From positions 868,001 through 932,000 of the forward strand of contig NC_017096.1 in assembly GCF_000284335.1 (NCBI RefSeq): a DNA stretch of 64,000 nucleotides, given 5' to 3'. Source of the stretch: Caldisericum exile AZM16c01. Its GTDB lineage: Bacteria > Caldisericota > Caldisericia > Caldisericales > Caldisericaceae. Position numbers and translations under genes: made by a program. Below, one piece after another: positions 249 to 29,099 of the stretch. Numbering within the stretch: the stretch's first letter is position 1; each line of letters starts with the position of its first letter. Under the pieces are notes generated by a model, which saw only the letters and a program-made list of their open reading frames with translations, was not told the origin of the DNA and ran no database searches.

Positions 249-265
249 GGGGGCTATTAGCCCCC
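249..265 (-). terminator. GC-rich hairpin after the flavoprotein gene
   Basis: GGGGGC, loop TATTA, GCCCCC. It lies 23 bp past the stop codon of the oxidoreductase at 289 and 13 bp before the ribosome-binding site of the left alcohol dehydrogenase. A GC stem of this kind in AT-rich DNA fits an intrinsic terminator; the following T-run is interrupted. Confidence 0.6.
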
Positions 266-16486: not shown

Positions 16487-17863
16487 TCAATATTCACTTT
16501 TGATGAACTTTCCAAATCCTTGATTTGCAAGTATTCCCTCTTTCTTATCATAAACAACTTTTCCTCTAAGAATCGTTTTTTCGATAATGCCATTGAATGT
16601 GAAACCGTCAAACGGAGAGTATTTATTCTTACAAAGAAGATCTTCTTTTGCATTAAACTTAAAATCCTGGAAAGGATTAACAAGCACGAAATCTGCATCA
16701 AAACCAACTTCTATTCGTCCCTTGTTTTTCAAACCAAACCTCTTTGCTACATTTTCCGAAAGAACGCGCTTTAAATCTTCAAGTGTAAGCCGACCCTTCG
16801 AGTAGCCAAACGTAAACAACATATAGAAACGTGTTTGAACACCAGGAATTCCTGCATAGTTATCCCAAATACTTTCTCTACTCTTTTCTTCAGGATAAAC
16901 GCCGCCTGCATGATCAGTTGTTATAAAATCTATACTTCCAGTTTTAAGTCCGTTCCAAAGATATTCAGAATCCTCTTTTTTACGAACAGGCGGCGCTGTT
17001 TTTAGAATTGCACCAATCCTATTGAGATCCTCCTCATTAAATATAAGATAATGTGGACACGTCTCGGCTGTAATATCTACACCATCACTTTTTGCCATTT
17101 CTATCATCATAAGGCCAAGTTTAGTTGAAAGATGAACTATATGAACTTTGTTTTTAAATTCTCTTGCAAGCGCTATACTTCTCAAAATTGCAACAGCCTC
17201 TGCTTCATAATTTCTTCCTTTAGTCCACGCCAAAGGGGAGATATGATTTAAATTCTGTTCCCTTCTTGAAAAGTAGTCAACAAGTTCAAAATCTTCAGCG
17301 TGAATTCCTGCAACAAGCCCTAATTCTTTTATATACTCGAAAATAGATGCCATCTCTTCGGTATTAACTCTTGGGTATGTCTTCATTCCTGAAATTGTAT
17401 AAAGTTTAAGGCCAACAACACCTTCCTTCTTTAAATCTTTGATTGTCTTTTTATACTCGCCCGAGTGTAGTTGCATTGGGGTAACTCCACCCCAAAAAGC
17501 AAAATCTACAAATGCCTTCTTAGAAACTATTTCAAGTTTGTATAAAAGGTTTTCCTTTGTTGTAACTTCAGGAATTGAAGTGCAGGGCATATCTATTACT
17601 GTAGTTACTCCACCTTTTGCGGCACTTTGAGTGCCTGTAAAAAAATCCTCTCTTTCAGTATATCCAGGGTCATCAAAATGAACATGTGCATCGATAAAAC
17701 CAGGAAACACAATATAGTTTGTACAATCTATTGTTTCACTATCATTTACATTGTCGGAAAGATTGCCTTCGAAAATGTCCTTTATTTTTCCATCTTCAAT
17801 AAAAATATTAACTCTTCTAAGATTATTTCCATTTGTAACAATGTTTGCATTTTTTAGAAACAC
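16487..17863 (-). CDS. Dihydroorotase/allantoinase/hydantoinase-family amidohydrolase
   Basis: A 458-residue metal-dependent cyclic amidase. The metal site residues are visible: DAHVHFDDPGYTER near 60, a Lys in VGLKLYTISG (near 152, probably carbamylated), HAED, HLSTK and TTDHAGG. It would open a cyclic amide ring such as dihydroorotate, allantoin or a hydantoin. It follows adenine deaminase by 9 bp in an operon for nucleobase breakdown, so allantoinase or hydantoinase activity is as likely as pyrimidine synthesis. No other pyrimidine biosynthesis genes are near. The exact substrate cannot be read from the sequence. Confidence 0.82.
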   Translation of the reverse strand: MFLKNANIVTNGNNLRRVNIFIEDGKIKDIFEGNLSDNVNDSETIDCTNYIVFPGFIDAHVHFDDPGYTEREDFFTGTQSAAKGGVTTVIDMPCTSIPEVTTKENLLYKLEIVSKKAFVDFAFWGGVTPMQLHSGEYKKTIKDLKKEGVVGLKLYTISGMKTYPRVNTEEMASIFEYIKELGLVAGIHAEDFELVDYFSRREQNLNHISPLAWTKGRNYEAEAVAILRSIALAREFKNKVHIVHLSTKLGLMMIEMAKSDGVDITAETCPHYLIFNEEDLNRIGAILKTAPPVRKKEDSEYLWNGLKTGSIDFITTDHAGGVYPEEKSRESIWDNYAGIPGVQTRFYMLFTFGYSKGRLTLEDLKRVLSENVAKRFGLKNKGRIEVGFDADFVLVNPFQDFKFNAKEDLLCKNKYSPFDGFTFNGIIEKTILRGKVVYDKKEGILANQGFGKFIKSEY

Positions 17864-17872
17864 ACTATCCTC

Positions 17873-19600
17873 CTATTCAACAAACAGATCAACAAAACTA
17901 AATTTCTCCACATCTACAAGACCAGAATCCGTAATTTTAAGTTTTGGAATAACCGCAAGGTGCATAAACGCAAGAGCCATAAATGGATCAGGATAGGTCA
18001 CGCCAAGGCTTTCATGTGCAACTTTATGTAACCTTTTTAATATTTCTGCAACTTCGTATACTGATCTATTAGTCATGAGCCCACCATAAGGTAAAGCAAG
18101 ATAATCAAGTACAACCCCATTTTTTGCAAGAGCAATTCCACCACCCATAGCCTCTAATTGACTTACCGAAAGTAGCATATCTTTATCATTTTCCCCTGCA
18201 ACAATTATGTTGTGAGAATCATGAGCAATTGATGTTGCAAAAGCACCATTTTTGAGACCAAGCCCATGGATAAATCCAACCGCAACTTTCCCCGTTGCTT
18301 TGTGTCTTTCAAAAACAGCAATTTTTATTATGTCGTTCACAGTATCAGATACAACAAACCCGTTAACTATCTTTGGTTCTACTACAAGTTCATCCGTAAC
18401 TATTGAATCATTTCGCAATCCTATTACCCTAATTTTTTTACCTTTTACGGGAACTTTTAATTTCTCAAATGTTGCAGTCTTGAGGTTTATTGTGTTCTTT
18501 ACAGCATCATCGTGACGTGGCTCTTCAACATCGAAAAGAGGAACTCCGTCCTTCGCAACAAGTTGTCCATCCTTGAACACAAGATCCATTTTTTTCAAAC
18601 TCTCAAAAACAACAATATCCGCAATATAGCCAGGGGCAATACCACCTTTTCTTCTAAATCCAAAGAAAAGTGATGGGTTAAGAGTGGCAAGTCTAACAGC
18701 AGTAGGCAAAGGTATTCCATTTTCTACAAGAAGTCTAATTGCAAAGTTTATGTGTCCTTCTGAAATAAGATCCTCGGGATGTTTATCGTCAGTGCAAAGT
18801 AAGAAACGGTGTTTCGTGCTATCATTTAAAACTGGGAGCAAGTTTTTTGCATCTCTTGTAACCGATCCTTCACGCATCATTATCCACATACCTTTAGATA
18901 ATTTTTCAAGCGCTTCCTCTTTGGTTGTGCACTCGTGATCTGCAAGTATACCGGCTGAAAGATAAGCATTTAAATCATATCCTGAAAGGGTTGGAGAGTG
19001 TCCATCTATAACTCCATTTCTAAAAAGCAAAATTTTGTCCAAAATCTCTGGGTCTTTATTGATAACTCCAGGATAATTCATCATTTCTGCAAGACCCAGC
19101 ACTTTTTCATGATTTTTTAATACTGCAAGGTCCTCGGCATATAAAGTTGCTCCTGACGTTTCAAGATTTGTTGCAGGCACACAACTTGAAAGCATAAAAT
19201 AAATATCCATTGGTAAATTCTTTGAAGCATTTATCATAAATTGAATTCCTGGAATTCCAGCAACATTTGCAATTTCATGTGGGTCAACTATTGCAGTGGT
19301 TGTCCCAAGTGGCACAACAGCCTTTGCAAACTCTGTTGGTATAAGCATGGTGCTTTCAATATGCATATGAGAATCAATAAAAGAAGGGGAAACAAAAGCA
19401 CCATCAACATCAAAAACGGTGTTAGCCTCATCGTATCCACCTATACCGGCAATTACTCCTTCAGCGATTGCAACATTTCCTTCAACAATTGTTTCGTTAA
19501 ATACATTCACTATTTTTGCATTCTTAATTAGTATATCTGCCGCTTTCCTTCTCCTTGCAACATCAATAATATTTGAAAGTTTTCTTCTATCAAGTTCCAT
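17873..19600 (-). CDS. ade: Adenine deaminase
   Basis: A 575-residue amidohydrolase that converts adenine to hypoxanthine and ammonia. The metal-binding SHMHIEST motif is near residue 77 and DPHEIANVAG near 110, with HSPTLSG and CTDDKHPEDL further on. The C-terminal half carries the family's AHDSHNIIVAG and EAMGGGIALAKNG segments. The length is normal for the bacterial Ade family. It lies 2 bp after the SsnA-like gene and 9 bp before the dihydroorotase-like gene. The facing BMP importer would bring in the purines. Confidence 0.93.
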   Translation of the reverse strand: MELDRRKLSNIIDVARRRKAADILIKNAKIVNVFNETIVEGNVAIAEGVIAGIGGYDEANTVFDVDGAFVSPSFIDSHMHIESTMLIPTEFAKAVVPLGTTTAIVDPHEIANVAGIPGIQFMINASKNLPMDIYFMLSSCVPATNLETSGATLYAEDLAVLKNHEKVLGLAEMMNYPGVINKDPEILDKILLFRNGVIDGHSPTLSGYDLNAYLSAGILADHECTTKEEALEKLSKGMWIMMREGSVTRDAKNLLPVLNDSTKHRFLLCTDDKHPEDLISEGHINFAIRLLVENGIPLPTAVRLATLNPSLFFGFRRKGGIAPGYIADIVVFESLKKMDLVFKDGQLVAKDGVPLFDVEEPRHDDAVKNTINLKTATFEKLKVPVKGKKIRVIGLRNDSIVTDELVVEPKIVNGFVVSDTVNDIIKIAVFERHKATGKVAVGFIHGLGLKNGAFATSIAHDSHNIIVAGENDKDMLLSVSQLEAMGGGIALAKNGVVLDYLALPYGGLMTNRSVYEVAEILKRLHKVAHESLGVTYPDPFMALAFMHLAVIPKLKITDSGLVDVEKFSFVDLFVE

Positions 19601-19602
19601 GA

Positions 19603-20928
19603 CTAAAACCGCCTCCAGAAATTCTTTGCAATTTCTTGTGATTTTCTTGATACCTCAATCTCGTCAATGTGTGTAAGTTTTTGGTCTTTTACCAATAACC
19701 TACCATGAACGAAAACGTCTCTTACAGAGTTTTCCCTAATGCCGAAAATAAGATGGAAGAAGAAATTGTCTTCATTTAGCGGAGTTGGAGGATTGTAGTC
19801 AAGCACAACAAGATCCGCATATGCTCCTTCTTTTATGACACCCACAATTTTATTAAAGAAACGATTTGCAACCGAAGCATTATTTTCAAACAGCATTCTT
19901 CTTGCAAGATCACTTCCTACTCTCGGGTCTTTATAGTGAAGTTTAGGCAATATATACGCAACTTTTACTGATTCTATCATTGAAGGCGTGTAACCATCAG
20001 TTCCAAGTCCTATTAAAATACCTTTCCTATCCATTTCAAGAATTGGAGCAACACCTACTCCATTGTTCATATTAGACTCTGGATTATGAATAACAGTTGT
20101 ATGAGTTTCATTTAAAATATCAATTTCAACATCATTTATATTAATACAGTGAATTGCGAGTGTATCTTTTTTAAGTATTCCGAAATCTTTCAATCTTTCT
20201 ACGGTTCTCTTATTTGAAACTTTTAAGGCGCTTTCTACATCTTCAATACCTTCCGCAACATGAATATGAAACCCAACATTTAGAGAGTTTGCTATACTTG
20301 AGACTCTCTCAAGTGTTTCATCTGAAAGCGTAAAGGAAGCGTGTAATCCAAAAAGCGCATTGAAGAAATCTCTATCTTTTTCCTTTTTAATGTATCTTTC
20401 ATTTTCCCTTATTGACTGCTCAGATAATTCTTTACCCCATCGATCTGAGGTTTCGAATGCAAGCACTCCTCTTATACCGACATCTCTTAAAGCATTTTCT
20501 ACAATATCAAGAGAACCATCTATAAGTCCAAATGAGGCATGATGGTCAATAATAGTGGTCGTGCCAGATTTCAGTCCTTCAATTGCAGGCATTAAAGCAC
20601 TATAATAGATTTCCTCTTCAGAAATTAGGAGTTTATCAAGTTTCCACCAAATCTGCTCAAGAATTTCTTTAAATGAATAGGGACTCGCTCCGCCAAATCC
20701 GAAACCTCGTGCAAAAGTGCTATAAAGGTGCATGTGAGTGTTTATAAAACCTGGAATTACATATCTATTTTCAAGGTCGTATAGTTCTGCATCTTTATAC
20801 TTAGAAGTGATCTGCTGGGTTGTTCCCACATCGAAAATTACACCATCGTCAATTGCGATAGCACCATTTTCAATATATGGTCGGTCTTTGTCTAAAGTTA
20901 TAATTTTTCCGTTGTAAAGAACCTTCAT
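19603..20928 (-). CDS. ssnA: SsnA-like aminohydrolase (purine deaminase family)
   Basis: A 441-residue amidohydrolase whose length and EVSDRWG-like region (FETSDRWGKELSEQS near 165) match the SsnA family. Metal ligands: NTHMHLYS (near 62), HIHVAEG (near 221) and a TDGY segment near 301. SsnA proteins are found in purine catabolism clusters; guanine-deaminase-like chemistry is inferred and not proven. It starts at 20928 behind AAGGAGG, 13 bp after the DUF503 gene. With adenine deaminase and the dihydroorotase-like enzyme it forms a breakdown route for nucleobases. Confidence 0.78.
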   Translation of the reverse strand: MKVLYNGKIITLDKDRPYIENGAIAIDDGVIFDVGTTQQITSKYKDAELYDLENRYVIPGFINTHMHLYSTFARGFGFGGASPYSFKEILEQIWWKLDKLLISEEEIYYSALMPAIEGLKSGTTTIIDHHASFGLIDGSLDIVENALRDVGIRGVLAFETSDRWGKELSEQSIRENERYIKKEKDRDFFNALFGLHASFTLSDETLERVSSIANSLNVGFHIHVAEGIEDVESALKVSNKRTVERLKDFGILKKDTLAIHCININDVEIDILNETHTTVIHNPESNMNNGVGVAPILEMDRKGILIGLGTDGYTPSMIESVKVAYILPKLHYKDPRVGSDLARRMLFENNASVANRFFNKIVGVIKEGAYADLVVLDYNPPTPLNEDNFFFHLIFGIRENSVRDVFVHGRLLVKDQKLTHIDEIEVSRKSQEIAKNFWRRF

Positions 20929-20941
20929 TTAATCCTCCTCC

Positions 20942-21220
20942 TTATATGATTTCTATGTGATAGTCCTCAAGTACTACTCTTGGCTCACTTTTAATAAATT
21001 CCACTACCTTTGATAGTGTGCTAAAAAGATGTGACCTTTCCGTGTTTACACTAACAACTGTTATATAAACATCCTTCCAGGAGTCAACACTTTCTTCTGC
21101 AATAGATACGTTAAAATTGTTACGTAATTTTTTAAATAGGCTTTGAGTTACTTGCCTTTTATCTTTAAGTGAAAAAGAATCAGGAACTACAAACTTAATA
21201 TTACAAATACCAACCTGCAT
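20942..21220 (-). CDS. DUF503 (YlxP-like) family protein
   Basis: A 92-residue ferredoxin-like-fold protein: VGICNIKFVVPDSFSLKDKRQ at the start, a KLRNNFNVSIAE segment and IEII at the end. These are the DUF503 signatures, seen in YlxP, which is usually encoded beside rbfA and infB. Its function is unknown. Here it lies between an ABC ATPase and purine deaminases, far from translation genes. Its ATG overlaps the ATPase stop by one base (TAATG), implying coupling. Confidence 0.85.
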   Translation of the reverse strand: MQVGICNIKFVVPDSFSLKDKRQVTQSLFKKLRNNFNVSIAEESVDSWKDVYITVVSVNTERSHLFSTLSKVVEFIKSEPRVVLEDYHIEII

Positions 21221-22332
21221 TAGAAATAGGCAGATTCTGTCTCTTTATCAAAAACGTGAATGTTTCTTAGATCAACATATAACTCAACAATATCGCCCAT
21301 CGTATAGTCTGCGTTTGCAGATGCACGTGCGATTGCAAGAGTACCATTCAATTTAAAGTGTAAGAAAGTTTCAGATCCCATAAGTTCAACAAAATCAATT
21401 GGTGCCTTTAAATGTTCAACAAAAGGTTTCATATTCTCGAGCAATTCCTCCTTGGGGAAAATATCTTTTGGTCTTATTCCAAGGATAACTTCACGTCTTC
21501 TTAGATTTGCAGATTCCAATAGTTTTGCATGATCTTTTAAGAGTTTAAGTTTAAAATCAGAACCTTTTAATATAAGGTCTTCGCCCTCTTTTTCGACAGT
21601 TACGTTAAAGAAATTCATAGGAGGTGTGCCTACAAACCCTGCAACAAATTTGTTTGCTGGCTTATCGAAAACTTCCTTAGGTGTCCCTATCTGTTGCACT
21701 TTTCCTTTATTCATTACTACAACTCTGTCGCCGAGAGTCATTGCCTCAACTTGGTCGTGCGTCACATAAATTGTCGTAACACCAAGTCTCTCATGTAACT
21801 TGATAAGTTCACCCCTTGTTTGCACTCTGAGTTTTGCATCCAGGTTTGAAAGAGGCTCGTCCATAAGGTAAACTTTTGGGTCTCTTACAATCGCTCGGGC
21901 AAGTGCAACCCTCTGTCTCTGACCACCTGAAAGTTCCTTAGGTTTTCTTTCAAGAAGATTCTCAAGACCTAACATTTGTGCAACTTCTTTTACTTTTTTG
22001 TCAATTACATCTCTTGGAACTCTCCTCAATTCAAGTCCAAAAGATATATTTCTATACACGTTCATATGAGGATAAAGAGCATAATTTTGGAAAACCATTG
22101 CAATGTCACGATCCTTCGGTGGAATATCATTGACTAATTTACCTCCTATATAGACTTCTCCGGACGTAACTTCCTCAAGTCCTGCAACAATTCTAAGTGT
22201 GGTTGTTTTTCCACATCCCGAAGGTCCAAGTAGCACTAAGAATTCTCCATCTTTTACATCAATGTTTACATTGTCAACTGCGACTACGTTGCCAAATTTT
22301 TTTGTAACGTTAACCAATTTTACGTCAGCCAT
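21220..22332 (-). CDS. Sugar-type ABC transporter ATPase (MalK/UgpC/MsmX family)
   Basis: A 370-residue ATPase: GPSGCGKTT (near 37), the Q-loop QNYALYPHM, the signature LSGGQRQR and the Walker B VYLMDEPLSNLD, followed by the OB-fold regulatory domain typical of MalK (GIRPKDIF near 280). It energises carbohydrate importers. No permease or binding-protein gene lies beside it, so it may serve transporters encoded elsewhere, as MsmX does. Start 22332 follows GGAGAGGTG. It heads the operon leading into the purine deaminases and is divergent from the GH57/glycogen operon across a palindromic control region. Confidence 0.9.
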   Translation of the reverse strand: MADVKLVNVTKKFGNVVAVDNVNIDVKDGEFLVLLGPSGCGKTTTLRIVAGLEEVTSGEVYIGGKLVNDIPPKDRDIAMVFQNYALYPHMNVYRNISFGLELRRVPRDVIDKKVKEVAQMLGLENLLERKPKELSGGQRQRVALARAIVRDPKVYLMDEPLSNLDAKLRVQTRGELIKLHERLGVTTIYVTHDQVEAMTLGDRVVVMNKGKVQQIGTPKEVFDKPANKFVAGFVGTPPMNFFNVTVEKEGEDLILKGSDFKLKLLKDHAKLLESANLRRREVILGIRPKDIFPKEELLENMKPFVEHLKAPIDFVELMGSETFLHFKLNGTLAIARASANADYTMGDIVELYVDLRNIHVFDKETESAYF

Positions 22333-22359
22333 TGTTTCACCTCTCCTATTTTTTACATT

Positions 22360-22387
22360 TTGTAATAAATGCAATGTTATGTATACT
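22360..22387 (+). promoter_or_regulatory. Promoter of the GH57/glycogen operon
   Basis: TTGTAA (22360-22365), 16-bp spacer, TATACT (22382-22387). The -10 lies inside the palindrome at 22382-22398. Start of translation is at 22435. Confidence 0.5.
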
Positions 22388-22398
22388 ATTATAGTATA
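22382..22398. promoter_or_regulatory. 17-bp palindromic operator candidate between divergent operons
   Basis: TATACTATTATAGTATA, perfectly symmetric around the central T at 22390. It overlaps the -10 boxes of both divergent promoters, so one bound dimer could block both. No regulator gene is adjacent. Confidence 0.5.
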
Positions 22399-22416
22399 TT
22401 TTTATTAAAAATACAA
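22388..22416 (-). promoter_or_regulatory. Promoter of the ABC ATPase/purine operon
   Basis: On the minus strand: TTGTAT (22411-22416), 17-bp spacer, TATAAT (22388-22393), overlapping the palindrome. Translation starts at 22332. Confidence 0.55.
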
Positions 22417-22434
22417 AATAAATTGAGGTTAAAA

Positions 22435-23874
22435 ATGCAAAATAAACTATTTTTATGGCTTCACATGCACCAACCAGATTATTTAGATTCCTTAACAGGA
22501 AAAATTATTCTACCTTGGGTTAGAAGACATGCACTTAATGGCTATTATTCTGTTCCATCAATGCTTCTAAAAAGTGAGTTTAAGGCAAACATTAATTTTT
22601 CAGGAATTCTTATAGAGCAAATAAAACAATACCAAGATGGCGAGAAAGACGTTTACCAAGTTTATGAAGATGCAGAACCTGAAAGTTTAAGTGAAAGTGA
22701 AATAAATTTTATATTCAGGAGATTTAAAACACCTTATTCTTTTAAAAACAAGCGTTTCGATTACTTAAAAGAAAAATTTTCTAAAGGAGAAAAATTATCA
22801 TCCCAAGAAATTCTTGATTTTCAAGTTATTTTTAAGTTATCTGCTTTCGCTCAAATTGATGAGGAAATAATCGAATTGAGGAATAAAGGTATGAATTTTA
22901 CAAAACAAGATAAAGAAGTTCTTATCAATCTTGAAAAGAAGATTATACATAGCCTTTTCGATATTTACAAGGAATTAATTAAAAGAAACCAAATTGAAAT
23001 AACGGTTACACCATATTATCATCCAATAATTCCGCTTCTTCTTGACTTAAATTCTGCAGTTAAAAGCAAAAAAGATGCAAAAATCCCTAATTTGCAATCA
23101 AATTTATATGAAGATGCAAAAATACACATAGACAAGGCTCTAAGTATAGGTTTTGACACCTTTAACATACAAATTAATGGAATGTGGCCTGCAGAGGGAA
23201 GTATATCTGAAGAAACAGTCATCTTATTTAAAAACTCAAAAATTAAATGGATCGGAAGTGACGAAACCCTTGTAAGATCACTTGGTTTAGGACAGGGGGT
23301 TTACAACTATAAAGATGTTACCTTATTCCTGAGAAATCATTCTGTTTCTGATAAAATTGGCTTTATGTACAATAAAATGAAACCTAGCGATGCAGTAGCC
23401 GACCTGAAACATGAACTTGAAAAAAACGGTAATCTTATCCTTATCCTTGATGGAGAAAATCCATGGGAGTATTTTGAAAATTATGGTGCAAACTTCATGG
23501 AAGAATTATTTAAATCCTTCAGTGGAAAGGAAACTCTTCTTGGAAGTGAAGCAGAACCAATAAAAGAAATTAATTATTTTGTACCTGGCTCTTGGATAAA
23601 CGGACATTTTGACACATGGATTGGAGATGAAGAAACTAATACTGCTTGGACTTACCTAATTGAGACACGCAAATTCGTCAACAATGATACCGCAAAAGAA
23701 TTCATTTTGAAAGCACAAGCAAGTGATCACTTCTGGTGGTACAGTGATTTTCACAAGAATGAAATTAACTTTGATTTTGATTATCTTTTTAGAGGACATT
23801 TAATTAAAGCACTTTTGGAAAATAAAATCGATGTCAAACCATATTTGTATTACCCAATTAAAAGTTTCCCATAA
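22435..23874 (+). CDS. Glycoside hydrolase family 57 protein
   Basis: A 479-residue GH57 enzyme acting on alpha-glucans (amylase, glucanotransferase or branching type). The GH57 motifs are visible: HMHQPDY at residues 10-16, WPAEGS with the nucleophile Glu near 250, ILDGENPWE with the catalytic Asp near 337, and SWINGHFDTWIGDEE near 386. There is no signal peptide, so it acts inside the cell, probably on glycogen or imported maltodextrin. The ATG at 22435 follows TTGAGGTT. It leads the operon with GalT-like, glycogen synthase, phosphohexomutase and Pgi. Confidence 0.88.
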   Translation: MQNKLFLWLHMHQPDYLDSLTGKIILPWVRRHALNGYYSVPSMLLKSEFKANINFSGILIEQIKQYQDGEKDVYQVYEDAEPESLSESEINFIFRRFKTPYSFKNKRFDYLKEKFSKGEKLSSQEILDFQVIFKLSAFAQIDEEIIELRNKGMNFTKQDKEVLINLEKKIIHSLFDIYKELIKRNQIEITVTPYYHPIIPLLLDLNSAVKSKKDAKIPNLQSNLYEDAKIHIDKALSIGFDTFNIQINGMWPAEGSISEETVILFKNSKIKWIGSDETLVRSLGLGQGVYNYKDVTLFLRNHSVSDKIGFMYNKMKPSDAVADLKHELEKNGNLILILDGENPWEYFENYGANFMEELFKSFSGKETLLGSEAEPIKEINYFVPGSWINGHFDTWIGDEETNTAWTYLIETRKFVNNDTAKEFILKAQASDHFWWYSDFHKNEINFDFDYLFRGHLIKALLENKIDVKPYLYYPIKSFP

Positions 23875-23884
23875 GGAGGTTTAA

Positions 23885-24898
23885 ATGCCAGAACTAAGAA
23901 GAGATCCAACAACAGGAAAATGGGTTATTATCGCTACAGAAAGAGCATTAAGACCAACTGATTTTAAAAGCGAAGAAGAGGTTTTAAAAGGTCCTGAAAA
24001 CTGTCCATTTTGTGTCGGACATGAATCAATGACCCCCCCTGAAATTACTGCAATAAGAGAAGATGGATCATTTCCAAATGGTCCAGGGTGGGATGTACGT
24101 GTAGTACCAAACAAGTTTCCGGCATTAAAGGTGGAAGGAGAACTAAATCGTCATGGAAAAGGCATCTACGATGTTATGAATGGTATAGGAGCCCATGAAG
24201 TGATTATTGAATCAGGCGATCATTATAAATCTCTTGAATCTCTTCCACTTGACCAAGTTGAAAAAGTAATTTGGATGTTTAGAGAAAGGATGCTTGATTT
24301 AAGAAAGGACGTAAGACTTAAATATATTCTCGTCTTTAAGAACAAAGGAAGAAGGGCAGGCGCATCATTAGAGCACCCGCATTGTCAGTTAATTGCAACG
24401 CCTGTTTTACCAGATGTTGTCAAGCTTGAACTTGATATGGCCTTAAGATACTACCAGTATAAGGAAAGATGTATTTACTGCGATATCGTTCAGCAAGAAC
24501 TTGAAGAGAAGGAAAGACTGATTGACGAAAATGAAAAGTTTATTTCAATTGTTCCATTTGCAGCAGCCGTTCCTTTTGAAATAATGATTCTTCCAAAAGA
24601 ACACATTTCAGACTTTGGACAGATAAAAGCAAATGAAATTATAAAACTTGCAGAAATTCTTCAGAATTCTTTGAAAATGCTTGAAAAAGCAGTACCAAAT
24701 GTTCCCTATAATTTCTATATTCACACATCACCCCTTGATAATCTGAATATCTCATACTACCACTTCCATATCCACATAGTCCCGAGGCTTACACAACTTG
24801 CTGGGTTTGAATGGGGATCAGGTTTTTATATTAATCCAATGATTCCAGAACAGGCAGCACAATTCTTAAGAAATGCTAAGGAGGAAAAACAGGCATGA
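23885..24898 (+). CDS. galT: Galactose-1-phosphate uridylyltransferase family protein
   Basis: A 337-residue HIT-superfamily nucleotidyltransferase. It has RDPTTGKWVIIA at the N-terminus, two CxxC pairs (CPFC near 40 and CIYC near 198) for metal, the active-site HPHCQ near residue 162 and HFHIHIVPR near 296. GalT swaps UMP between UDP-glucose and hexose-1-phosphates. No galK or galE lies nearby. Its place before glycogen synthase, which overlaps it by 4 nt, suggests that it supplies or balances the sugar nucleotide for glycogen. That is an inference. Confidence 0.88.
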   Translation: MPELRRDPTTGKWVIIATERALRPTDFKSEEEVLKGPENCPFCVGHESMTPPEITAIREDGSFPNGPGWDVRVVPNKFPALKVEGELNRHGKGIYDVMNGIGAHEVIIESGDHYKSLESLPLDQVEKVIWMFRERMLDLRKDVRLKYILVFKNKGRRAGASLEHPHCQLIATPVLPDVVKLELDMALRYYQYKERCIYCDIVQQELEEKERLIDENEKFISIVPFAAAVPFEIMILPKEHISDFGQIKANEIIKLAEILQNSLKMLEKAVPNVPYNFYIHTSPLDNLNISYYHFHIHIVPRLTQLAGFEWGSGFYINPMIPEQAAQFLRNAKEEKQA

Positions 24899-26322
24899 AT
24901 ATAGGAATAGTTTCAAGCGAAGCAGTGCCATTTTCGAAAACAGGAGGACTTGCAGATGTTGCAGGAGCATTGTTTAAAGTGCTTTCAAGTATGGGAGAAA
25001 CAGTTTACCTGTTTACTCCTTACTATAAGAAAACTAAAGAACTATTCAAACAATTTGAAAAAAGAATTCCATTCAAAGTTAAAATTTATGGAAAAGATGT
25101 TGAAGGGATTGCAAATGTAGTTGAATTTTACAAAAACGGAATCGCTGTCTTAATAGAACAGAACGAGTATTTTAACAGAGATAGTCTATACGGGGAAAAA
25201 GGGGTAGATTATCCCGATAATCCTTTAAGATTCGGATTTTTTGATAAGGCTGTTCTTGAAACTTTAAAGGTTTTAAACCTCAAAGTAGATGTGCTACATC
25301 TAAACGACTGGCAAACAGGACTTATTTCTCTTTTTGTTAAGGATAAACAACTACCATATAAAACCCTTTATACAATTCACAACCTTGCATATCAAGGAAA
25401 TTTTGACTATGACTTTTTAAAGTTATTAGAAATTGATGAAAAATATTACTCAATTGATGGCGTTGAATTTTATGGAAAAGTGAGTTTCATGAAGGCAGGC
25501 ATTGTATACTCTGATAAAATAAGCACTGTAAGTCCGACCTATGCAAAGGAAATTCTTACTGAGGAGTTTGGTGAAAGAATGGAAGGAATTTTAAAATCGA
25601 GAAAAAACAATCTTATAGGAATACTAAACGGTATTGATTACGAAATTTGGAATCCGCAAACAGACACACTAATTTATAAAAAGTTTGATTTAGACAATTT
25701 ACAGGGTAAAAGAGAAAACAAAATTGAGTTCGTAAAAGAACTTGGGTTAAAAAGTATAGATGCACCACTTCTTGGAATGGTATCAAGAATTGCATCACAA
25801 AAGGGTTTAGATATACTTTCAGAGTCTCTAAAAGAGATTTTGAAAGAAGATGCAAATGTAGTAATTCTTGGAACTGGGGAAAAACCTCTTGAAGAAAAAT
25901 TAAAGGCACTTTCAGACCTTTATCCAGAAAAATTCAAATTATTTTTAACGTTTGACGAAGCGCTTGCTCATAAGATATATGCTTCATCTGACTTCTTCCT
26001 CATGCCTTCAAAATATGAACCTTGCGGGTTAGGGCAGATGATTGCATTAAGATATGGAACACTTCCAATCGTCCATGAAGTGGGTGGATTAAAGGATACA
26101 GTTGATAACTATTCAGATATAACACAATGTGGAAATGGTTTTTCTTTCGAAGAATATTCAAGCGATGAGTTAACTTCAGCAATAAACAGAGCGCTTTCTA
26201 TTTTCAAAAACAAAGATTTAATGTTAAAATTAATTAGGATTGGCATGAGCTGTAACTTTTCATGGGAACAATCAGCAATGAAATATTTAGAGATTTATAA
26301 GGAGCTATTAAATGCCAATTAA
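24895..26322 (+). CDS. glgA: Glycogen synthase
   Basis: A 475-residue GT5 glycosyltransferase that extends alpha-1,4-glucan from ADP- or UDP-glucose. The N-terminal KTGGLADVAG nucleotide-binding motif is at residues 15-24. LNDWQTG and the C-terminal SKYEPCGLGQM near 370, with the conserved Glu, match bacterial GlgA. The ATG overlaps the galT stop by 4 nt and it overlaps the next gene by 11 nt. No glgC is present in the window. Confidence 0.93.
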   Translation: MNIGIVSSEAVPFSKTGGLADVAGALFKVLSSMGETVYLFTPYYKKTKELFKQFEKRIPFKVKIYGKDVEGIANVVEFYKNGIAVLIEQNEYFNRDSLYGEKGVDYPDNPLRFGFFDKAVLETLKVLNLKVDVLHLNDWQTGLISLFVKDKQLPYKTLYTIHNLAYQGNFDYDFLKLLEIDEKYYSIDGVEFYGKVSFMKAGIVYSDKISTVSPTYAKEILTEEFGERMEGILKSRKNNLIGILNGIDYEIWNPQTDTLIYKKFDLDNLQGKRENKIEFVKELGLKSIDAPLLGMVSRIASQKGLDILSESLKEILKEDANVVILGTGEKPLEEKLKALSDLYPEKFKLFLTFDEALAHKIYASSDFFLMPSKYEPCGLGQMIALRYGTLPIVHEVGGLKDTVDNYSDITQCGNGFSFEEYSSDELTSAINRALSIFKNKDLMLKLIRIGMSCNFSWEQSAMKYLEIYKELLNAN

Positions 26323-27742
26323 ATTTGGTACATCAGGCTGGAGAGGAATAATTGCAGACGACTTTACTTTTGAAAATGTTAGGCTTGCTTCAGCGGGTAT
26401 AGCCTACTACCTTAAGGAAATTGGTGCAAGATCAATTATTGTAGGATACGATACACGTTTCATGTCTGAGGATTTTGCAAAAACTTCAGCATCGGTTGTT
26501 GCTGCATACGGAATTGAAGTTTATTTTTCCCAATACGATATACCAACTCCTGTCGTTGCCTTCGAAATATTAGATAAAAATGCAGACGGAGGAATTAATA
26601 TTACAGCGTCTCATAACGATTACATGTATAATGGCCTTAAATTTTCGAATAAAACAGGTGGACCTGCTCTTCCAGAAGAAACAAAGAGAATCGAGGAAAT
26701 AACCAACCAAATAAAAGAAAATAAAGAAAAAATTCAGATAACTAACTTTGATGAGGCAGTTTCGAAAGGTTTAATTCACATTTTTGATAAAACAAACTAC
26801 TTTGATAACTTACGAAAAATGGTCGACTTTGAAAAAATTAGAGAAAAACGTCTTAGAGTTGTTTATGAACCATTTTTCGGAACAGGAAGAAGATTTCTTC
26901 CGCCATTGATTCAAGATATTACTGATTTTGAAATGATTCACGGAGTGCGTGATCCACTTTTTGGAAAACTCCATCCAGAACCGATAGAAGAAAACCTTAA
27001 ACCTTTGCAAGAAGCCGTTCTTAAAAAACAAGCAAATATTGGAATCTCTACAGATGGCGATGCAGACCGTTTCGGCTTTATAGATTCAGACGGTAGCTTC
27101 GTTCCCCCAAATATTATCCTATCAATTATTTACCATTACCTTCTTGATGTAAGAAAACTTAAAGGGAATGTTGTTAGAACAATTTCAACGACAACACTAC
27201 TTGATAGAATCGCCCATGCACATGGTTTTGAAGCAATTGTTACACCTGTTGGTTTTAAGTACATAGGAGAAGCACTTTTTGAGAAAAAAGCAATTTTTGG
27301 AGGAGAAGAAAGTGGTGGTGCTTCGTTACAGGGATGGCTTCAAGAAAAAGACGGTATATTAATTGACACTCTTGTGCTCGAAATAATCTCTCACTACGGG
27401 AAAAGCCTTAGGCAATTAATGAACAATTTGTTCGAAAGATACGGCACGGTACATAATAAAAGGATAGACTTCTCATTTTCTAAAGAATTACAGTCTAAGT
27501 TAATGGGTCTCCTCAAAGAGTACATCATTCAAAACAAAGAGCTACTTGCTGTAACTAATATCAATGAACTTGATGGTTTGCAAATTACCCTCGAAGATCA
27601 AAGCACGATTCTTTTTAGACTCTCTGGAACAGAGCCAAAAATGAGAATTTATCTCGAAGCATATTCAGAAGAAAAACTAAATAAATTATCGCATTTTGCG
27701 ATTCAAATTCTTAACAAGGCAGGTGGATTAAGTGAAAATTGA
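26312..27742 (+). CDS. Phosphoglucomutase/phosphomannomutase family protein
   Basis: A 476-residue alpha-D-phosphohexomutase. GTSGWRG (residues 6-12), the phosphoserine loop TASHND (near 100, Ser as the phosphate carrier), the metal loop DGDADRFG (near 246), the sugar loop GGEESGG (near 330) and the phosphate-binding RLSGTEPK (near 434) are all present. It interconverts glucose-1-phosphate and glucose-6-phosphate, linking glycogen synthase to Pgi, which follows with an 11-nt overlap. Confidence 0.93.
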   Translation: MPIKFGTSGWRGIIADDFTFENVRLASAGIAYYLKEIGARSIIVGYDTRFMSEDFAKTSASVVAAYGIEVYFSQYDIPTPVVAFEILDKNADGGINITASHNDYMYNGLKFSNKTGGPALPEETKRIEEITNQIKENKEKIQITNFDEAVSKGLIHIFDKTNYFDNLRKMVDFEKIREKRLRVVYEPFFGTGRRFLPPLIQDITDFEMIHGVRDPLFGKLHPEPIEENLKPLQEAVLKKQANIGISTDGDADRFGFIDSDGSFVPPNIILSIIYHYLLDVRKLKGNVVRTISTTTLLDRIAHAHGFEAIVTPVGFKYIGEALFEKKAIFGGEESGGASLQGWLQEKDGILIDTLVLEIISHYGKSLRQLMNNLFERYGTVHNKRIDFSFSKELQSKLMGLLKEYIIQNKELLAVTNINELDGLQITLEDQSTILFRLSGTEPKMRIYLEAYSEEKLNKLSHFAIQILNKAGGLSEN

Positions 27743-29099
27743 TTATTCGAATATATTGAGTGAAAATATAGGCATTCGTGGGATACAAAAAGCTGAAATT
27801 TTAAAAGAAGAAGATTTACTTAAAACCGTTAAAAATAGAATACTGTCACGAATTAATGATGACTACTATCCCCTAAATCTTCCAGATGCAATGCTCAATG
27901 AGGTTCGTGAAATTAAAGACTACGCTTCAAATATAAAAGAAAGATTCGACAATCTTGTAGTAATTGGAATGGGTGGCTCAATTCTCGGTAATGAACTTCT
28001 TCATTATTCAATTAACGGTGTATATTCAAATTTAGAAAAATCTAAGAAAATCTATTTCATCGATAATATTGATCCAGAGACAAATATTACACTTCTTAGA
28101 AGTCTTGACCTTAAGAAAACGTTTTTCAATATCATAACAAAATCTGGGTCAACAAGTGAGACATTGTTAAATTTACTTTTACTGATCGACCTTTTTAAGA
28201 AAGAGGGGCTCAATCCGAAAGACCATTTTCTTTTCACAACTGACCCGGAAAAAGGCTTTCTAAGGAAACTTTCAGAGGAACTTGCGATTAAGACATATCC
28301 TATTCATCCGAAAGTGGGCGGTAGATATTCTGTTTTATCGCATGTTGGCCTATTTTCTGCTGCGTTTGAGGATGTTAATATTGAAAAACTCTTACTTTCT
28401 GCAAAAAAAAGGAAAGAAAAATTTTTGTCTAAGAAACCAATTGAAGATAGTGCGATGGTTTTTGCTTTGATTCAATACAAATTTTTTAGAGAAAAGGGTG
28501 TTAACATAAACGTTTTGTTCTCATATTCTGACGGTCTTGAATATTTAGGCAAGTTTTATGAACAACTCCTTGCAGAAAGCATTGGTAAAAAGTTTACAAG
28601 AGATGGACAAGAAATTCATTCAGGTATTACACCTGTTGTCGCAAGGGGACCGTACCATCAGCATTCAACACTCCAACTTTTCATGGAAGGTCCGTATGAC
28701 AAGTTAATTATTTTCGTTGCACCAAACAAATTTAGAAAAGACATAGAAATTAAGAAAAGCTTAGAACACGATGAAATTAACTTCTTAAGTGGAAAATATT
28801 ATTCAGAATTACTATTAAACGAATATATTGCAACCAAGATGGCCTTAACTCAGAACGGTAGACCAAACGTTTCGATAGAAATCGAAAAAATAAACGAAGA
28901 AACCTTGGGTGAATTAATTTACTTTTTAGAACTCGAAGTGCTTGCTTTGGGAGAGATTCTAAATATAAATCCAATTGATCAACCATCTGTTGAAATTGGT
29001 AAAAAATTTACACACGCCTTGATGGGAGATAAAAATTACTCTGAATACCTTAAAACTCTTGAAAAATTAGGAAATGTTGATAAACTAATCCTTGATTAA
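27732..29099 (+). CDS. pgi: Glucose-6-phosphate isomerase
   Basis: A 455-residue isomerase of glucose-6-phosphate and fructose-6-phosphate. The phosphate-binding region has GMGGSILGNE (near 78) and TKSGSTSETL (near 135). Catalytic-region segments are GGRYSVLSHVGL (near 195), ESIGK with the conserved Glu (near 285) and GPYHQHSTLQ (His near 318). The length is usual for small bacterial Pgi. GTG at 27732 follows AGGTGG inside the end of the mutase gene. Confidence 0.93.
   Translation: MKIDYSNILSENIGIRGIQKAEILKEEDLLKTVKNRILSRINDDYYPLNLPDAMLNEVREIKDYASNIKERFDNLVVIGMGGSILGNELLHYSINGVYSNLEKSKKIYFIDNIDPETNITLLRSLDLKKTFFNIITKSGSTSETLLNLLLLIDLFKKEGLNPKDHFLFTTDPEKGFLRKLSEELAIKTYPIHPKVGGRYSVLSHVGLFSAAFEDVNIEKLLLSAKKRKEKFLSKKPIEDSAMVFALIQYKFFREKGVNINVLFSYSDGLEYLGKFYEQLLAESIGKKFTRDGQEIHSGITPVVARGPYHQHSTLQLFMEGPYDKLIIFVAPNKFRKDIEIKKSLEHDEINFLSGKYYSELLLNEYIATKMALTQNGRPNVSIEIEKINEETLGELIYFLELEVLALGEILNINPIDQPSVEIGKKFTHALMGDKNYSEYLKTLEKLGNVDKLILD

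Follow-up and report, generated by a model that had tools for sequence, protein, structure and literature searches.

In the genome of Caldisericum exile AZM16c01, two divergent sets of metabolic genes are separated by a short spacer in which a perfect 17-bp palindrome overlaps the -10 boxes of two promoter-like sequences. Is this palindrome the operator of a single dimeric repressor that switches both operons, as the first-pass annotation of this DNA had suggested, or does its symmetry belong to the promoters themselves? We analyzed a window of 64,000 nucleotides (positions 868001-932000 of the single 1,558,103-bp contig; positions below are those of the window unless stated otherwise), further stretches of the same genome and the corresponding loci of relatives.

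The divergent operons and the palindrome between them

The plus-strand operon starts with a GH57 glycoside hydrolase gene (22435..23874; assigned by Pfam, with relatives found), followed by overlapping or nearly abutting genes with Pfam matches to GalT-like proteins, starch/glycogen synthase, phosphoglucomutase/phosphomannomutase and phosphoglucose isomerase (23885..29099). The minus-strand operon, also assigned by Pfam, encodes (i) a MalK-type ABC transporter ATPase (21220..22332; ABC_tran, OB_MalK and TOBE_2), (ii) a DUF503 protein (20942..21220), (iii) an amidohydrolase, putatively purine/pyrimidine deaminase-like (19603..20928; Amidohydro_1), (iv) an adenine deaminase-type amidohydrolase (17873..19600; Adenine_deam_C), and (v) another amidohydrolase, putatively dihydropyrimidinase/allantoinase-like (16487..17863; Amidohydro_1). 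The division into glycogen genes on one side and a MalK-type ATPase with purine breakdown genes on the other, as initially annotated, was thus borne out. The MalK protein has 29 matches in the genome at an E-value of 1e-20 or better, itself included, the two closest others sharing 53% and 51% across the ATPase portion; therefore, it is not the sole ATPase of its kind in this organism.

The gap between the start codons of malK (22332, minus strand) and GH57 (22435, plus strand) is 102 bp long and has 19% GC. Two predicted sigma-70-type promoters lie in it at the places first assigned to them: TTGTAA (22360-22365)-16-TATACT (22382-22387) for the GH57 operon (22360..22387, plus strand), and TTGTAT (22416-22411)-17-TATAAT (22393-22388) for the malK operon (22388..22416, minus strand). 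Each pair scores 9/12 against the consensus under a looser rule; a stricter scan lists the plus pair and misses the minus pair, because the -35 box of the latter fits the consensus at 3/6 bases and the scan needs 4. The stricter scan returns 6 promoter-like matches in a 1-kb stretch compared to 3.7 in its shuffles, so that consensus matches alone are weak evidence in DNA this AT-rich. The two -10 hexamers abut without shared bases, a distance of 6, 7 or 8 bases from -10 box to start would separate the predicted starts by 11, 13 or 15 bp, and the -35 regions are near mirror images of each other (ATTTTGTA at 22357-22364 and TACAAAAT at 22412-22419). Abutting -10 boxes were also considered as a recurrent architecture of this genome, and the idea was rejected: the pattern TATAMTAKTATA occurs elsewhere in 2 places, compared to 3 for the control.

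The palindrome itself, TATACTATTATAGTATA, occupies positions 22382-22398 (no strand). Both the sequence and an inverted-repeat listing confirm its perfect symmetry: 8-bp arms flank one central T, and nothing symmetric lies further out. It is the only place in the genome that matches within two mismatches, once per strand. A shared operator implies a dyad-symmetric site over a promoter, and 22382-22398 is such a site. The -10 boxes account for only 12 of its 17 bp, and when both boxes were held fixed and the flanks shuffled, a full 8-bp-arm dyad appeared in 2.4% of cases.

The initial annotation cautioned that AT-rich DNA gives palindromes by chance. Dinucleotide shuffling of the 102-bp gap gave a perfect 8-bp-arm dyad in 1.8% (spacer 1), 3.3% (spacer 0-1) and 11.5% (spacer 0-8) of sequences. 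A 624-kb sample of the genome, comprising the window and 28 other stretches, contains 24 perfect 8+1+8 dyads, which scales to about 60 per genome; nine of them fall in 87 kb to which a crude gene caller assigned no coding sequence, and two of these nine are in the malK-GH57 gap. Given the shuffle rates and this count, the palindrome stands out mildly and is nothing extraordinary. Among 41 sampled divergent gaps of 40-400 bp, four contain a perfect 8-bp-arm dyad with a spacer of 0-8 and only one, the malK-GH57 gap, with a spacer of 0-1. The second 8+1+8 palindrome of this gap, TATTTTTATTAAAAATA (22397-22413), overlaps TATACTATTATAGTATA by two bases and is perfect in none of the three other genus members aligned. 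Apart from these, two G+C-rich palindromes that share their outer arms, GGGGGCTNNNAGCCCCC, were observed at window positions 249-265 and at L064:1794-1810; they are perhaps terminators or repeats.

Conservation of the gene pair and of the spacer

A GH57 match was found in 39 of the 61 genomes searched, and a close one (at least 46% identity) in 17 of the 18 family members, C. exile included; the 56% complete genome G001 has a weak match only. In 15 of the 17 with a close match, malK is divergent from GH57. Genome G012 holds GH57 only in part on its contig and has no malK match, and G007 has no malK match in the flank, its nearest upstream gene of at least 80 codons being DUF503-like, as judged by eye. 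At locus L018 (5461-6001), which we assign to G007 from matching alignments, a DUF503-like gene and then an amidohydrolase-like one, both named by eye, lie directly opposite GH57.

The palindrome has a narrower distribution than the gene pair. Three of the four genus members with the locus (C. exile, G002 and G003) have the perfect dyad and the same plus promoter. The fourth, G004, has a single deviating base among the 17, by which the symmetry is lost and TATAAT stands in place of TATACT; its plus promoter is TTGTAA-15-TATAAT, with a 15-bp instead of a 16-bp spacer. The -10 box of the minus promoter is TATAAT in all four. None of the 11 other family members with the divergent pair has a perfect 8-bp-arm dyad (spacer 0-4), so that symmetry among the relatives keeping the gene pair is perfect in 3 of 15, all from one genus. 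Within this spacer range, the arms of their longest perfect dyads measure 4-7 bp, and the sequences are different ones. Promoter-like consensus matches recur in these 11 genomes: the best malK pair is TTGACT-16-TATAAT or TATACT in 9 of the 11 and the top GH57 -10 box is TATAGT in 8, counts that are not independent, as one genus contributes five of these genomes and a second genus two. The family thus shares the divergent gene pair, and the palindrome is seen in one genus only.

Within that genus, three species agree at all 17 palindrome positions and four species at 16, a level of conservation across four species reached by only 0.3% of the 17-bp windows over 15 kb. The 17 positions lie within a longer run of 76 bp (22328..22403, no strand), invariant in three species, that begins slightly within malK, stops shortly beyond the palindrome and includes the malK start codon, its ribosome site and leader, the plus promoter and the palindrome. 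For comparison, overall invariance in the three species is 68% over 15 kb (MAFFT) and 69% over 30,450 window bases (BLAST). In about 45 kb compared, this run is the longest outside a tRNA pair; that pair gives the longest run (123 bp) of a second region of 14,628 bases, where the next run, of 50 bp, lies in a 6S-RNA-like element. Among window gaps of at least 40 bp, 13 aligned in both species and 11 did not (the gene caller is crude, and some of these gaps hold real genes); the malK-GH57 gap is the most conserved of the 13 (0.90, longest run 71; the next are 0.82 and 0.79). One of the five aligned gaps of the second region, that of the 6S-like element, is more conserved (0.92), and a 67-bp divergent gap there is nearly as conserved (0.88, longest run 12).

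The 6S-like element, at L062:9631-9802 on the minus strand (G000:C1 about 359631-359802), is non-coding and lies in a gap that is 92% invariant in three species. It matches the full model of the 6S RNA family with a score of 36.8 bits (E 4e-6), short of the curated cut-off of 46.4, and is probably the 6S RNA of this lineage.

Conservation of the 76-bp run exceeds the need of two core promoters, and more than the two -10 boxes is constrained here. The invariance is lopsided: in three species, 49/49 bases are invariant on the malK side (22333-22381), from the malK start codon through the leader, compared to 72% on the GH57 side (22399-22434). The malK side also contains a second, imperfect dyad, ATTTTTTACATTTTGTAATAAAT (22348..22370, no strand), which has 10-bp arms with one mismatch, lies over the -35 box of the plus promoter and is centered 31 bp from TATACTATTATAGTATA. 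In 624 kb of C. exile sequence there is a single copy of its core, TTACANNNTGTAA, compared to none for the reversed control; allowing one mismatch, the core is not enriched in the window over chance expectation (6 compared to 4.8). The second dyad is a candidate alternative operator. In a reading that builds on the conserved block, it or the malK leader would be the element that matters, as the target of a regulator or as a leader signal, and the symmetry over the -10 boxes would be incidental. We regard this reading as unlikely, though slightly less so than the other alternatives. Adding G004 lowers the invariance of 22333-22381 to 78% and changes one base in the left arm of ATTTTTTACATTTTGTAATAAAT; the malK leader folds weakly (z -1.41), the GH57 leader folds no better than shuffles (z 0.49), and no Rfam family matches 22100-22700 up to an E-value of 1, by which a known RNA element there was discarded; and the 71-bp block 22333-22403 has no second copy in the C. 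exile genome (next best E 0.335). A 34-base, 82% match to this block in G024 (E 0.0026) was set aside as a probable chance match in AT-rich DNA.

Further sites and candidate regulators

A repressor that binds the palindrome as a dimer, covers both -10 boxes and shuts both operons is about as likely as a regulator on another part of the block, that is, doubtful. It would account for the perfect 8-bp arms centered on both -10 boxes and for the conservation of the dyad, identical in three of the four genus members with the locus and embedded in the 76-bp run; few 17-bp windows match this conservation, as noted above. The difference in G004 weighs against it, since it breaks the dyad and yields a consensus -10 box, as does the absence of the dyad from the 11 other family members with the gene pair.

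Additional copies of an operator near related genes are usual, although not required, and a local repressor with a single target needs none. The first-pass annotation had proposed a genome search for further copies of the 17-mer near sugar genes; none emerged above the control, with 17 matches at up to three mismatches (two of them the site itself, on each strand) compared to 24 for the reversed control. No second place for the gapped half-sites TATACTA-N0..8-TAGTATA was found in the genome, and a regulon built on the 17-mer was rejected. The core CTATWATAG was likewise rejected as a recurrent site: it occurs 9 times in 624 kb (3 non-coding) compared to 6 (1 non-coding) for its control. At up to two mismatches, the 17-mer is found only at the site itself in C. 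exile, G002 and G003, nowhere in G001, and at the locus and three other places in G004. One copy elsewhere in a genus member, L070 (G004:C20:4265-4281), has a single mismatch.

Regulator genes were sought by family (LacI, GntR and TrmB). No LacI-family gene was found in the genome by a search that was positive in 9 of 14 known genomes, and none of the 10 genes that the Pfam scan covered in the two operons is a regulator gene; both results count against a dedicated repressor. The genome has two GntR-type genes and three TrmB-type matches, one of them over the cut-off, which could provide one. In an open library, we found no paper joining Caldisericum with transcription start sites and none joining Caldiserica with operator and regulon.

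More speculatively, and with a rather small probability, the 76-bp block may be a genus-specific device, in which one regulator on the two dyads, centered 31 bp or about three helical turns apart, one over the plus -35 box and the other over both -10 boxes, would set the direction of polymerase and so favor either glycogen metabolism or, at its expense, solute uptake and nucleobase breakdown. Least probable is that the AT-rich spacer yielded the palindrome by chance and the real promoters lie elsewhere: the abundance of 8+1+8 dyads in the genome, the unconserved second one in the same gap and the 11.5% shuffle rate are in its favor, and it is opposed by the invariance of all 17 bp in three species, and of 16 in four, and by the singularity of this gap among the 41 divergent gaps at a spacer of 0-1.

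A probable compact bidirectional promoter and its known counterparts

We favor, with a probability of about 0.65, the reading of 22360-22416 as a compact bidirectional sigma-70-type promoter with no dedicated repressor on the dyad. Housekeeping-sigma RNA polymerase would bind this 57-bp stretch in either direction, transcribing the GH57/glycogen operon one way and the malK/DUF503/deaminase operon the other. With abutting -10 boxes, the open complexes of the two directions would melt one shared stretch of DNA and leave room for a single polymerase at a time. The palindrome would then owe its origin mainly to the near self-symmetry of -10 boxes and to the head-to-head placement of two of them. 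Sequence, positions, conservation and gene layout are observed here; we infer the use of both promoters, their mutual exclusion and the lack of a dedicated repressor on the dyad. By transfer from the bidirectional promoters of Escherichia coli and Salmonella, the two operons may be coupled without any repressor at this site. Of the original proposal, the gene content and the two abutting divergent promoter-like pairs, kept at these positions in the genus, are supported. The single repressor is not: no further copies rose above the control, which is one half of the outcome that the annotation itself had named as refuting, no LacI-family gene was found, the 11 other family members with the gene pair lack the dyad, and the one difference within the genus breaks the symmetry in favor of a consensus -10 box.

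Several observations favor the bidirectional promoter: both pairs score 9/12 with spacers of 16 and 17 bp, divergent promoter-like pairs recur in the family without the dyad, the single difference in G004 breaks the dyad and yields a consensus -10 box, the 17-mer is not above its control, and no LacI family member was found. Other observations oppose it. The shuffled flanks seldom reproduce the full arms (2.4%), the 76-bp run exceeds two core promoters, the minus pair fails the stricter scan, abutting -10 boxes are no commoner in the genome than in the control, the predicted start spacing falls outside the common values of 18, 10 and 23 bp, and the difference in G004 is a single event that may have had either direction. 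The confidences given to the different readings overlap, as a regulator could sit atop a bidirectional promoter.

If the favored reading is correct, the locus would be a probable bidirectional promoter with metabolic gene sets on both sides, in a deep-branching thermophilic lineage and between genes paired across the family. It would also be a clean example of promoter symmetry that can pass for a repressor site. What deserves bench work is the unusual conservation of the 76-bp run.

Divergent operator-promoter regions with one repressor site form a general class. The C. exile locus resembles it in that a single dyad sits between divergent operons and lies over both core promoters, and differs in the lack of a regulator among the 10 operon genes scanned, of a repeated site, and of the dyad in other genera with the gene pair.

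Bidirectional promoters, as described by Warman, Grainger and colleagues in the passages cited here, are defined in Escherichia coli and Salmonella by divergent starts 7-25 bp apart (PMC10268837) and explained by the symmetry of the -10 region (PMC10268837; PMC12825309), with start spacings commonly of 18 bp, also of 10 or 23 bp (PMC12825309). According to the latter source, two polymerases cannot bind at once owing to steric constraints; in five bidirectional promoters tested, basal activity was too low for competition, and a strongly activated direction can repress the opposite one (PMC12825309). Unlike these promoters, the C. exile locus has -10 boxes that abut without shared bases and a predicted spacing other than 18, 10 or 23 bp (PMC12825309); because the abutting boxes depart from the common 18-bp geometry, membership in this class is likely rather than established. 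Like them, it has a pseudo-symmetrical -10 region (PMC12825309; PMC10268837), divergent starts predicted 11-15 bp apart, inside the 7-25 bp range (PMC10268837), and an arrangement in which binding one way would, by analogy, be expected to exclude binding the other (PMC12825309).
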